The translations under genes were made by a program, and so were the position numbers. Below are positions 40,716 to 45,378 of a stretch of DNA of 64,000 bases, piece after piece. Under the pieces are notes generated by a model, which saw only the letters and a program-made list of their open reading frames with translations, ran no database searches and was not told the origin of the DNA. Position 1 is the stretch's first letter. Every line of letters begins with the position of its first letter. This DNA comes from Bacillota bacterium (GTDB lineage Bacteria; Bacillota; Dehalobacteriia; UBA4068; UBA4997), in the NCBI GenBank assembly GCA_017397935.1, contig JAFQHN010000015.1, forward strand, positions 66,746-130,745, in the 5' to 3' direction.

Positions 40716-41321
40716 TTAAACTTGTGCACTGGCCCACTTGGTAAATGTGTGTTGTGCCACGCCCAGCAGTCTGGCCGCTCCTCTGCCAGAGAGTTCTCCA
40801 CGCTTCCATTGGTCATATATCGGCGTGGAATCATCCGGTATTTCCATAGGAGACCGTCCCATGTGAACGCCCCTGGCTTTCGCGGCAGCAATACCTTCGG
40901 CCTGTCTCTGGCGAATAAACTCTCGCTCTGTCTGGGCTACATAGCTAAGCAGTTGCAGGACGATGTCGGCAATAAGCGTTCCTGTAAGATCCCGTCCCTG
41001 TCTGGTATCCAGAAGCGGCATATCCAGTACCACGAGGGCGGCCTTTTTCTCTCTGGTGATAATACGCCATTGTTCCAATATTTCTTCATAGTTGCGGCCC
41101 AGCCGGTCAATGCTTTTAATAACAAAGGTGTCACCCAGTTTTAGTTTTCTGATAAGCCGCTTATATTGGGGGCGATCGAAGTCCTTGCCGGACTGCTTGT
41201 CCATAAATATGTCACTGTCTTTAATACCAAATTCGTGCATAGCCAACCGCTGACGGTCTTCGTTTTGCTCCTTGGTGGATACGCGGATATAGCCGTAAAG
41301 ATTTCCTGTGGTTTCGTTCAT
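40716..41321 (-). CDS. Serine recombinase (resolvase/DNA invertase family)
   Basis: A 201-residue small serine recombinase. The catalytic Ser is in GYIRVSTKEQN (about residue 14), with arginines in the DRQRLA, SIDRLGRN and TEREFIRQRQ motifs. A C-terminal helix-turn-helix reads GRGAARLLGVAQHTFTKW. This domain order and size match resolvases and invertases of the Tn3/Hin type. ATG 41321 has AAGGAGGAAA upstream. Its stop is in the same frame as, and nine codons before, the remains of the broken SLH gene, so the recombinase seems to have replaced that gene's start. No transposase accompanies it. Confidence 0.9.
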   Translation of the reverse strand: MNETTGNLYGYIRVSTKEQNEDRQRLAMHEFGIKDSDIFMDKQSGKDFDRPQYKRLIRKLKLGDTFVIKSIDRLGRNYEEILEQWRIITREKKAALVVLDMPLLDTRQGRDLTGTLIADIVLQLLSYVAQTEREFIRQRQAEGIAAAKARGVHMGRSPMEIPDDSTPIYDQWKRGELSGRGAARLLGVAQHTFTKWASAQV

Positions 41322-41420
41322 AACAGTTTCCTCCTTTTGATATGTACTTATATACTTAAAGTTTATAGGAAACATTGATATACAACTAAGTTTTTGCAAT
41401 CAAACTTATTTTAATACCCC
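41322..41420 (-). promoter_or_regulatory. AT-rich upstream region of the recombinase, possible recombination site
   Basis: The block contains TTGATAT twice (41337 and 41378 region) and other short palindromic pieces (CTTATATACTTAAAG). Small serine recombinases usually bind such sites next to their own gene. I cannot define subsites with confidence. Confidence 0.3.
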
Positions 41421-41493
41421 AAATAATTAAAGGACACCCTACTCAACATATACAGGCCAAGTTGCGGTATCCTACAAGAAACGTAGATAATAA

Positions 41494-41750
41494 CATGAAT
41501 ATAGTTCAATCCTCTACATCTGTTGTCCATATTGCAGTAATCGCAGAGTTCTGGATTGAGAACGATCCGGATATTCACAATGTGGCTAAGATTGATGGAA
41601 CTGGTTATGATACCTCGGAAGATGCATTTATGGCCACAGCATACGAAGACACTATATAACGGCGTTGGTAATGACTGTATCAAGGCTGCAACTGAACATG
41701 AAGGCAGTGCCGCATCATATATTACTATAAGCGAATCCTACGCAAAATAA
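41494..41750 (+). pseudogene. Frameshifted remnant of an unrecognised gene
   Basis: From ATG 41495 the frame reads VVHIAVIAEFWIENDP and GYDTSEDAFMATAYEDT to a stop at 41659. A second frame continues without a gap of sense as LYNGVGNDCIKAATEHEGS to ISESYAK and stop 41750. The join is at GAAGACACTATATAAC, so one base has been gained or two lost. There is no clear ribosome-binding site. A good terminator follows at 41785-41825, as expected of a former gene end. I do not recognise the family. Confidence 0.5.
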
Positions 41751-41784
41751 GAAACCGCTATTCATACATACCGCAACAAACGCA

Positions 41785-41825
41785 AAGCTCACCGGGACTC
41801 ATTATAAGTCTCGGTGAGCTTTTAT
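41785..41825 (+). terminator. Terminator after the frameshifted remnant
   Basis: AAAGCTCACCGGGACT and AGTCTCGGTGAGCTTT form a near-perfect 16-bp stem followed by TTATCAT. It serves plus-strand transcription. Confidence 0.8.
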
Positions 41826-42300
41826 CATAAAGAGAACAATGTAAACTTTGATTCCTTAATAGTCGACAGCCTACTGCATAGACAGAGTGAGTATCGAAAA
41901 CACAGTTGTCATCCAGCGTTCCGATGTGCCGTTCCAGCGAGATCCTTCAACGCATGAAATGCTGTGGGATGCTTCATCACACTATTCTAAGAACGACAAT
42001 AACTGCTCGAATAAGAAAAAAACTTATATACAACTCGGCAAGAAAATTTAATATTGTACCAATAGACATAATTGCAGATACTGTTTACATACAGAATCAA
42101 AAATCAAGTATATTCATTTCTACAACAAACATAAATAGCTTATCATCTGTTATACAGACAACAGACTATTTTTACATACAAAAAATCCATCACAGCCGAA
42201 GCTTTAACAGGTTATAGTGAATATACGCGAAATCAAATTGCTGATCTCTTAAATGCCACGGCCATATTCATTAAACAGAATCTATAAATCCAACCTAATA
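41826..42300. other. AT-rich remnant DNA without an intact gene
   Basis: A 55-codon plus-strand frame from GTG 41887 to 42051 reads SIENTVVIQRSDVPFQRD and THEMLWDASSHYSKND, which looks protein-like but has no recognised family. A separate stretch near 42183-42288 reads AEALTGYSEYTRNQIADLL, which resembles part of a helix-turn-helix. These look like scraps of degraded mobile or acquired genes. Confidence 0.4.
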
Positions 42301-42948
42301 CTATTTTTCCATAACCTTCTGTTGCTTCTTATATCGACCTGCAACTCTTGAAATATACGGATTATCCTTTATGAAATATCGCCACAAGTAATCTTTACAT
42401 TCATCCGCGTAATCAATGTTAATCCTCGGAGACACCATAATATCGGTCTTATCTATGTGTTGCAGCGGTTCAATATATAATTCTGACTTACATAAATCAT
42501 ATCCATAGTGTTCTATGGTTATACCCATTGATTTACATAGTTTACCCGGTCCGTTGCATAATTCAACACGATCAACAATATTTCTACGCTGCCGCATCAA
42601 TTCAATTCCATCCACCGGTTCAAGCGCACGAATCAACACGACTTCTGGCTTATCACATATATTTACTACAACATTAAAGCATAAGTGCATTCCATATATA
42701 GCATAAATATATGCATATCCGCCTAAACCAAATTGAATTTCTGTTCGCTTGGTTCGCTTATTCAAGTAAGAATGTGCACCTTTGTCATGTGGACCAATGT
42801 ATGACTCCACTTCCACAATAATTCCGGATGTAACCCCTTGGCTTGAATTATGCACCAACAGTTTACCCAGTAATTCCGGCGCAACCGTATTGGCATCTCT
42901 TAAATAGAAATCCCGCATAATAGGCGCTATTTTTGTATTCGTTTGCAT
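42301..42948 (-). CDS. 3-methyladenine DNA glycosylase (AAG/MPG family)
   Basis: A 215-residue DNA-3-methyladenine glycosylase that removes alkylated or deaminated purines. Family blocks are APELLGKLLVH, the catalytic-Glu block GIIVEVESYIGPHDKGAHSY, RTEIQFGLGGYAYIYAIYGMHLCFNVV and the NGPGKLCKSMGI site. ATG 42948 with GGAGG upstream overlaps the oxidoreductase gene by 22 bases. The gene is AT-rich relative to the core genome around it, and belongs to a three-gene cassette. Confidence 0.92.
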   Translation of the reverse strand: MQTNTKIAPIMRDFYLRDANTVAPELLGKLLVHNSSQGVTSGIIVEVESYIGPHDKGAHSYLNKRTKRTEIQFGLGGYAYIYAIYGMHLCFNVVVNICDKPEVVLIRALEPVDGIELMRQRRNIVDRVELCNGPGKLCKSMGITIEHYGYDLCKSELYIEPLQHIDKTDIMVSPRINIDYADECKDYLWRYFIKDNPYISRVAGRYKKQQKVMEK

Positions 42949-44315
42949 ATTTCCTCCGCAGCAATCAAACTCGTAGCAGCAGAATGGACGATTCCCTGAC
43001 TAAGTCCAGCTCCATCACCGACAGCAAACCATCCAGTATTAGATGTTTCCATATTGGAATCAACTTTAACAGAATCCATAAACCATTCCAACGCAGGAGC
43101 GTATACCAAACTATCCTCGCTCAAAATACCCGGCACAATTTTACTTAAACGCAACACAAAATCAGAAATATGTGTTCCGGCAGCATCAAAAGAGTCTAAT
43201 ATTCCCCTGATATTGCCTGTTTTGCTCCTGACCTTAGTAGGAATGTCATCTTTCGTTTGGCATCTTTCAGGATGTAAAAAATCTGAGAGTTTTTGCACTA
43301 CAACTCCATTTGAATTCACCAAAGAAAACTGTTTAAGAACTTCACATATATCCTGACTGTCTTTTTCGGTGGAAACAAGAATATTGAAATTCCCTTTTGA
43401 TGACTGTTGCTCAAACACAACCTGATTTTTTACTGTAAACCGCGTGTGTCCACCGACAATAGGAAATCCCATATAGTTTGTACATACGATGTCCCCATGA
43501 CGGCAAAAACAATGTGTTTTAACTTTTCTACTACCGTAATGAGCCCAAATTTTAGGGTCAAAAGAGTATTCAAACAACTCTTTTATTGCCTCATGCGATG
43601 TTTCAAGGCGAATACCCAAATATGTACTTTCTTTTTTCAGTTCAATTCCATTTTCTGCAAACAGGGCCTTCAACCAACCGCTTCCGGTCTTTCCGACAGC
43701 AAAAATCACATTTGATGCTGAGAAAGATTCACCACTGTTTGAATCCAGAATAGACTCACCATTCAAGCCGGTATTCACCTGCTCAATTTCACAATTTAGC
43801 TTTAAGAAAACACGGGGACTTTTACAAATAGTATTGGCAAATCGTGTGGTAATGTGGTGTAAATTCTCTGTACCCATATGCAAAACATTATAATGCTTGA
43901 TTTCCAATCCTTCTTTTTTGCACAAGGATTGCCACCGTTGTTGCTCATCAATGGTTATATCAGGACTTTGCTCTGACTTACCATCGTGTTTTCTCAAAGT
44001 TTCAACAATTATGTTTTTTAACTCATCTCTCTTTTTTTCACTCAGATTTGAGATAGTATCAAGTTTGCCGCCAGAGTGAAGATCTAACACCAATTTACCA
44101 TCTGAAAACAATCCTCCACCGCCGACACCGCACAATACATTACAGCGCTCTTTATCCGTACATACACAACAATTTCCATAGCACTTACGCTCTTGAGCTG
44201 CTTTTCCCTTATCAATTAAAAGAATAGTCGCACACTCCGAATGCTCTAAAATATAATGTGCAGCAAAAAGGCCTGCCGGACCTGCACCTATAATTGCAAC
44301 ATCATAATTTTTCAT
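42927..44315 (-). CDS. FAD-dependent oxidoreductase (uncharacterised dehydrogenase family)
   Basis: A 462-residue flavoprotein. The N-terminal dinucleotide-binding site is DVAIIGAGPAGLFAAHY and ends with the acidic LLIDKGK strand. A Cys-rich segment KCYGNCCVCTDKERC follows, then GVGGGGLFSDGKL, and the C-terminal FAD site is WFAVGDGAGLSQGIVHSAA. It resembles the large uncharacterised FAD-dependent dehydrogenase family (BaiN- or HI0933-like relatives). The electron donor and substrate are unknown. ATG 44315 is chosen over a TTG at 44330 that follows the previous stop directly. It lies between the dUTPase-like gene and the DNA glycosylase gene. Confidence 0.8.
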   Translation of the reverse strand: MKNYDVAIIGAGPAGLFAAHYILEHSECATILLIDKGKAAQERKCYGNCCVCTDKERCNVLCGVGGGGLFSDGKLVLDLHSGGKLDTISNLSEKKRDELKNIIVETLRKHDGKSEQSPDITIDEQQRWQSLCKKEGLEIKHYNVLHMGTENLHHITTRFANTICKSPRVFLKLNCEIEQVNTGLNGESILDSNSGESFSASNVIFAVGKTGSGWLKALFAENGIELKKESTYLGIRLETSHEAIKELFEYSFDPKIWAHYGSRKVKTHCFCRHGDIVCTNYMGFPIVGGHTRFTVKNQVVFEQQSSKGNFNILVSTEKDSQDICEVLKQFSLVNSNGVVVQKLSDFLHPERCQTKDDIPTKVRSKTGNIRGILDSFDAAGTHISDFVLRLSKIVPGILSEDSLVYAPALEWFMDSVKVDSNMETSNTGWFAVGDGAGLSQGIVHSAATSLIAAEEICKRIQK

Positions 44316-44330
44316 AATATTATCACTCAA

Positions 44331-45143
44331 TTATTTCTCTGAATTTTCATCCGGCTGAGATACCTGCTCATTTAGATTCAATTCATAGTATTGTCCGTCT
44401 ATACAAATGGTGAGAATATCTTTTTGTGTATCAACAAAAAACTCGGGGGATGAAGACTCTTTCTCCATATCATCGAACAGTCCACCTATGCTTGGCATAC
44501 CAATAAGGAGGGCAAATAAAACAGTTAATACAGCAATAACAACAGTAATAAATGTGAGTACATTGGGCAAAAAACTGTTAAAACGCTCTTTTCGTTTCTC
44601 AAGCTCTTGTTTTAGCTCAAATACCGCCCCTACCTTTACCTCTTTGCAATAATCACCTAAATTATTGAGACCTTGATATTTACCTGTATAAAGTTGCTCA
44701 GACTCCAAAGGTTTGCTTAGCTCTGTAAAAACAATGTTTAAGATATGCTCTCCGCGCTCAATTTTAACAGGTTGGTTTGACAAGTTATGTAGAAGTGCAA
44801 CTGTCTTTCCTCTATATCCAGGATCGTATGGAGGCTGTGCAGCCAACATAACACCGGATTTTATCAGGCCAAAAGAAAGCGAAATTGATGCAGTTAAATC
44901 TAACGGCATATTCACGATTTCTTCCGTCATAACATAGCATATTGAATTGGGAGGAATTTTCAAAATATCGCCTTTACCCAAAGTTGAAATGTGAACAGTA
45001 TCGCCATCTTTTTTTCGATAGAAATAATACTGCTCACCCATTCTTAAATCATAACTACATGTCTGAATATTTTCAGGGCGATAACCCTCAATCAAATTTT
45101 CATTCTCGCAGCGATATGCAATATCATTCCTGCATAATACCAT
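44331..45143 (-). CDS. Membrane-anchored dUTPase/dCTP-deaminase-like protein
   Basis: A 270-residue protein. Residues about 1-165 match the trimeric dUTPase/dCTP-deaminase fold: QTCSYDLRMG, TEEIVNMPLDLTASIS, SFGLIKSGV in place of motif 2, and YDPGYRGKT, where the Asp of dUTPase motif 3 is kept. The Glu that dCTP deaminases use in the next strand is absent (VALLHN). A basic/coiled stretch (ELKQELEKRKERF) leads to one strong membrane helix at about 190-215 (NVLTFITVVIAVLTVLFALL), then a short acidic tail. Normal members of the family are soluble. GAGGAAATAAGG precedes ATG 45143. It is the first gene of the cassette. Confidence 0.75.
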   Translation of the reverse strand: MVLCRNDIAYRCENENLIEGYRPENIQTCSYDLRMGEQYYFYRKKDGDTVHISTLGKGDILKIPPNSICYVMTEEIVNMPLDLTASISLSFGLIKSGVMLAAQPPYDPGYRGKTVALLHNLSNQPVKIERGEHILNIVFTELSKPLESEQLYTGKYQGLNNLGDYCKEVKVGAVFELKQELEKRKERFNSFLPNVLTFITVVIAVLTVLFALLIGMPSIGGLFDDMEKESSSPEFFVDTQKDILTICIDGQYYELNLNEQVSQPDENSEK

Positions 45144-45378
45144 ACCTTATTTCCTCAATACACATCGATTATTGTTTTTATACTCATTAACTGTATTATT
45201 CATAATAAATATACCAAATATATGGTTTTCACAATGATAGTACCACAATTTCTATGATATTGCAATAATCATATTGATAAAATCATTCAGTTTTTATGAA
45301 GGAGCATAATACATATAGGACAATGAAATAAATGGTTCTGGCAATCATCAAACCATCCTTATCAAAGCACAATTATCC
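45144..45378. other. AT-rich intergenic gap
   Basis: No gene is seen. On the minus strand this holds the unmarked promoter of the cassette, and it receives transcripts leaving cobO at 45379 only if they pass beyond the end of that gene. I see no clear terminator hairpin. Confidence 0.5.

Follow-up and report, generated by a model that had tools for sequence, protein, structure and literature searches.

What joint function could unite a membrane protein with a nucleotide-enzyme fold, a flavoprotein, and a purine DNA glycosylase is the question raised by an AT-rich three-gene cassette in the genome of a Bacillota bacterium. The cassette lies within a 64,000-nucleotide stretch of DNA that was analysed as a whole (the window). 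A preliminary description had placed the three genes here on one strand, with a 22-base overlap and a low GC content, and all of this was reproduced: the GC content is 38.0%, compared with 48.2% and 49.6% in the flanks. The genes are located on the minus strand and are transcribed in the order gene 1, gene 2, gene 3. Gene 1 (44331-45143; 270 aa) encodes a DCD-like membrane protein recognized by a PF22769 match and by its fold, gene 2 (42927-44330; 467 aa when read from a TTG start codon) an FAD-dependent oxidoreductase of the VP0956/3NLC (COG2509-like) type, and gene 3 (42301-42948; 215 aa) a methylpurine-DNA glycosylase of the AAG/MPG family (PF02245). The stop of gene 2 and the start of gene 3 overlap by 22 bases (42927-42948), which is also the case in two other copies of the cassette (L054 and L055, see below). 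Tight coupling had been reported for all three genes; genes 1 and 2 touch if gene 2 starts with the TTG codon and are separated by 15 bases if it starts with an ATG five codons downstream at 44315. The ATG is likely the true start, judging from homologues that begin MKNYDV-like. The intergenic region upstream of the operon (45144-45378, minus strand) contains a promoter-like TTGCAA-17-TACTAT pair, which was read by eye.

The product of gene 1 had been described as a dUTPase-like protein, a term that calls for correction. Its best Pfam match is DCD (PF22769, E=1.3e-18, over the cut-off), whereas the dUTPase family PF00692 reaches only E=0.08; with 83.3 bits, the NCBIfam dCTP deaminase model TIGR02274 stays below its cut-off of 92.8. 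An AlphaFold2 model (mean pLDDT 78.6, mostly about 90 in the fold core) resembles the dCTP deaminase/dUTPase structures 4xjc, 9ln0, and 8y1w, with a Foldseek probability of 1.00 for 4xjc and 9ln0. Thus, PF22769 and Foldseek agree on a DCD/dUTPase-like beta fold, which comprises residues 1 to about 160 and is shared, together with the DPG motif, with dCTP deaminases and bifunctional DCD-DUT enzymes. In contrast to these, the protein continues into a predicted continuous helix (173-214) with a single transmembrane stretch (196-214, mean hydropathy 2.97). The last 56 residues form an acidic tail (13 D/E, 3 K/R), in which short strands (234-256) are predicted with low to moderate confidence. The single helix and the acidic tail noted earlier were therefore confirmed.

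The preliminary description had linked this protein to control of the nucleotide pool; control by catalysis finds no support in a comparison of the six known cassette copies with four canonical DCDs, from which the row canon_L066 was left out because it had been translated in a wrong frame. The RSS motif is replaced in all six copies, the deaminase catalytic Glu of the TLEL motif is changed to L or M, and the motif-4 Gln to N or T; the Arg following RSS is missing in five of the six. The four canonical DCDs retain both Glu and RSS. Accordingly, none of the copies has the Glu and RSS of a dCTP deaminase or the combination of motif-2 Ser/Arg and motif-4 Gln of a dUTPase, although the Asp of D107-P-G is invariant among them. 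The loss of RSS is the telling change, because the structures 8y1w and 9ln0, which are described as dUTPases, also lack the deaminase Glu but keep RSS. An active dUTPase or dCTP deaminase was rejected on these grounds as the first-choice role. Judged by its residues, the protein is probably neither a working deaminase nor a standard dUTPase; it may bind some nucleotide, and its probable role is that of a sensor or anchor that binds a nucleotide without catalysis.

Gene 3 encodes a full MPG domain (PF02245, E=4.2e-62, 209 bits). Equivalents of the human residues E125, Y127, H136, N169, and R182 are conserved in all six copies, so that both the family domain and every active-site residue checked are those of an AAG/MPG enzyme. 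Enzymes of this type normally remove damaged purines, and from its sequence the protein would likewise excise modified purines. It differs from other members of the family by its fixed partnership with genes 1 and 2. It is the sole MPG match in the genome of the window and, with one exception, in those of the five other hosts; the exception (G426) has a second MPG match with an in-frame stop.

The product of gene 2 shows an N-terminal Pyr_redox_2 match (Pfam), and PDB 3nlc (VP0956) is matched in sequence with E=1.9e-8 and as best fold match with E=2e-18. This similarity in sequence and fold to 3NLC places it among the VP0956/COG2509-like oxidoreductases, with which it shares the fold, the FAD motif, and a Cys cluster preceding GGxGxFSDGK. 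A profile built from the six cassette FAD proteins has matches in 288 of the 399 genomes sampled from the phylum, nearly all of which have ordinary homologues. Unlike these, the cassette copies constitute a separate monophyletic group and are placed before MPG instead of purA. In a tree with 43 ordinary homologues they form one clade with a support of 1.0. The profile gave 788 and 708 bits for the two cassette copies in the phylum sample, scores that are favoured because both sequences helped to build the profile, and 314 bits for the best ordinary homologue. At 17 of the 43 loci, which are the best-scoring ones and not a random choice, purA is encoded immediately downstream of the ordinary homologue on the same strand, mostly less than 60 bases away, and with 1.5 kb of flank per locus this count is a lower bound (L023, L026, L028, L030, L090-L094, L099, L101-L103, L105, L108, L109, and L113). 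An MPG or DCD-like gene adjoins none of the 43 homologues within these flanks. The gene context suggests that the COG2509-like flavoprotein family is tied to purine nucleotide metabolism, and it is from the position of these relatives before purA that a purine link of gene 2 is proposed. A literature search with partial coverage returned no description of COG2509 function; the linkage to purA is thus a lead on a common, uncharacterised flavoprotein family.

Whether the same three genes occur together elsewhere had been named in the preliminary description as a test. A search of the 399 genomes of the phylum sample for gene 1 relatives revealed one other close relative (G147, 41% identity over residues 16-211) on a contig with the three genes in the same order, where an HTH-ImmA/IrrE regulator stands before them and a dGTPase-like gene after them. 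A contig scan of genomes with the window's gene 1 protein alone gave no match, and a scan of a collection of 84,980 species genomes with a two-sequence alignment of gene 1 as query led to five loci: L054 (uncultured bacterium), L055 and L058 (both labelled Lachnospiraceae), L056 (Syntrophomonas), and L057 (Peptococcaceae, on what is apparently the G147 contig). Since the scan relies on matches to short conserved peptides alone, the copies counted here are a minimum. At all five loci the FAD protein and MPG are encoded directly downstream of gene 1, in this order and on the same strand, giving one gene order in six of six copies. Because the query was gene 1 only, the presence of genes 2 and 3 at every locus is independent evidence. 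For L054, L055, L056, L057, and L058, identities to the window proteins are 58%, 54%, 36%, 34%, and 37% for the DCD-like protein, 66%, 58%, 40%, 39%, and 39% for the FAD protein, and 73%, 67%, 53%, 52%, and 54% for MPG.

The trees of the three genes have one identical topology (node supports 0.91-1.0), the concatenated tree is supported with 100% at every inner node, and distances correlate among the three genes with 0.89-0.95. That three unrelated genes merely became neighbours in one AT-rich patch has next to no probability left: nothing speaks for such a chance adjacency beyond the single example known initially, and it is refuted by the conserved order, the congruent trees, and the conserved overlap. 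The trees also conflict with taxonomy, as L055 and L058 are not sisters and L055 groups with the window. The class of the window is represented in the collection by 43 genomes and the order of L055 alone by more than 392; this places the two hosts in different classes. Each of the six cassettes has a higher AT content than either of its flanks, and relative to the closer flank the difference is 1.3 to 14 points. The cassette is absent from the window's genus and from the other nine genomes of its family; it was found in the query genome and one other among the 399 phylum genomes, and in one of 392 genomes sampled in the order of L055. A transferable functional unit of the three genes is thus strongly supported, and the cassette is a co-inherited, horizontally moved operon among distantly related Clostridia. 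A viral origin was considered and rejected, since single-sequence and profile scans of viral contigs did not find the cassette and gave only distant DCD matches. Plasmid and phage collections contained no cassette either, but only distant DCD-like proteins and ordinary relatives of the FAD and MPG proteins.

The recombinase that had been reported beside the cassette is real, being a resolvase-type serine recombinase (40716-41399; PF00239, E=1.9e-30), and is left out of the unit because no similar gene was seen adjoining the other copies. The region between this gene and the cassette (41400-42300) contains few genes and short ORF remnants. The remainder of the window is ordinary chromosome, with cobalamin biosynthesis genes on the right-hand side and genes for cell division and an SLH-like protein on the left-hand side, and does not look like a defence island. 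As the window sits within a 146 kb contig of a genome that is 99.4% complete, contamination by a stray contig is unlikely. In an empty-site comparison, the borders of the insertion could not be placed because the cobalamin gene region has diverged too far in the relatives of the window (CobQ identities of 44-61%).

Among the other copies, one is located near a DarT-DarG pair, an spr1629-like repressor, and a dGTPase-like gene. The DarT-DarG toxin-antitoxin pair (L046:2223-3948) is about 5 kb from the cassette on the Peptococcaceae contig. A fragment of the GTPase gene rsgA (L046:6821-7132) and a full rsgA (L046:13532-14617) flank the cassette region on opposite sides, an arrangement that looks like the outcome of an insertion or duplication at this site. 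The dGTPase-like gene beside this copy was considered as a fourth member of the cassette and dismissed, as it is missing beside the other copies. In L054, a small TIGR04540-like protein (726-989) directly precedes gene 1.

For the role of the operon, a reading is tentatively favoured in which the products of the transferred genes jointly act at the membrane on purines that are aberrant or modified, with restriction of foreign DNA as the most likely purpose. The DCD-like domain would trimerise at the inner membrane face and bind a nucleotide without turnover, serving as sensor or anchor; the fold and the loss of catalytic residues are observed, and trimer and nucleotide binding are inferred. 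The flavoprotein, whose FAD fold is evident and whose purine link comes from the relatives preceding purA, would catalyse a redox reaction of a purine base or nucleotide. The glycosylase, with its intact active site, would cut a modified purine base from DNA and thereby leave abasic sites that block replication; that it targets foreign DNA and not damaged DNA of the host is a guess. This reading is supported by other DCD-like proteins with membrane helices, which also accompany nucleotide enzymes (see below), and by Brig1 as a precedent for defence through a glycosylase (PMC11078745), and the sporadic occurrence and mobility of the cassette speak for an accessory trait, for instance defence. 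Counting against defence, most copies lie outside visible defence islands, no phage or plasmid copy was found in the collections scanned, damaged purines are what MPG normally removes, and being the only MPG in five of six hosts would also suit plain repair. PADLOC matched no defence protein in the cassette except for a weak 2TM match to gene 1 residues 172-236 (E=0.018). A defence or DNA-damage role, as raised in the preliminary description, is possible.

Given the intact repair enzyme and the ordinary surroundings, a repair role is nearly as likely as defence. MPG would then repair alkylated or deaminated purines of the host, the flavoprotein would detoxify or reduce a damaged purine or an alkylating compound, and the membrane protein would act as a tether or sense pool imbalance, the module having spread by helping hosts that lack MPG. 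The sole-copy status of this repair-type enzyme in five hosts, the ordinary chromosomal neighbours, and the purine link of the flavoprotein family agree with this, whereas repair genes seldom need a fixed pairing with a membrane pseudo-enzyme, the distribution is very sporadic, and the G426 host has its second MPG match, albeit with an in-frame stop. An effector triggered by a nucleotide, by analogy to the transmembrane effectors of CBASS or Pycsar, is unlikely: the DCD-like domain would bind a free base or a modified nucleotide produced by MPG and the flavoprotein, and the helix would disturb the membrane and stop the infected cell. The sensor domain joined to a single helix fits this idea, as do the 2TM match and the reuse of the same layout next to other enzymes; however, a match of that E-value can arise by chance, neither a cyclase nor a signal synthase was identified, and the conservation of the external tail points to something beyond a pore. 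Rather improbable is a house-cleaning hydrolase of changed specificity working through the DPG Asp, by which the module would sanitise a modified deoxynucleotide pool. The invariant Asp and the dUTPase-described structures of the same fold that lack the Glu could be read in its favour, but the Asp is also present in canonical deaminases and does not discriminate, and 8y1w and 9ln0 keep the RSS that all six copies have lost together with the motif-4 Gln.

No described repair or defence system that could be found fits the cassette. Brig1, an anti-phage DNA glycosylase of the UDG superfamily, targets a glucosylated pyrimidine (PMC11078745). Like Brig1, the product of gene 3 is a DNA glycosylase and could target modified bases in the DNA of an invader, but it belongs to PF02245 and not to the uracil-DNA-glycosylase superfamily. 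The nucleotide-pool theme is shared with depletion of nucleotides by defensive dCTP deaminases and dGTPases (Tal et al. 2022, as cited in PMC12265719) and with Clover (PMC12265719), and a dGTPase-like gene adjoins the L046 copy. In contrast to these systems, gene 1 lacks the deaminase residues and the dGTPase-like gene stands beside only one of six copies. What sets the cassette apart from the systems found is a fixed, mobile partnership in which a flavin enzyme joins a membrane pseudo-deaminase and a purine DNA glycosylase. Should it act against foreign DNA, known immunity would be extended by purine base excision and by membrane nucleotide sensing; if it serves repair, it would represent a membrane-linked, transferable purine-repair module.

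DCD-like domains without catalytic residues and with a C-terminal membrane helix (DCD-TM) also occur in other proteins, for which a literature search with partial coverage found no paper. The common theme of their neighbourhoods is largely nucleotide chemistry. Two of them are fused to a guanylate-kinase-like domain (L009:147-1340 and L068:901-2112), and a third, with two membrane helices, is encoded in a row between a PurA/PurZ-like synthetase and a deoxynucleoside kinase (L053:410-3020, G319). In several clostridial genomes (L049, L050, L051, and L052, corresponding to G080, G189, G186, and G153), DCD-TM is encoded between or beside radical SAM/SPASM proteins and DUF2284-type metal-binding proteins, which is a second type of DCD-TM operon. 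It is possible, although doubtful at this stage, that DCD-TM is an unnamed family of nucleotide sensors, each combined with a different enzyme set (flavoprotein and purine glycosylase, guanylate kinase, PurA/PurZ-like enzyme and deoxynucleoside kinase, or radical SAM and DUF2284), and that together they make up a new, mobile class of nucleotide-surveillance systems, with the cassette as one type. A DNA methyltransferase-like gene and a relaxase flank the L068 fusion on either side, and DCD-TM proteins are also found on plasmids of Priestia and Rhizobium.
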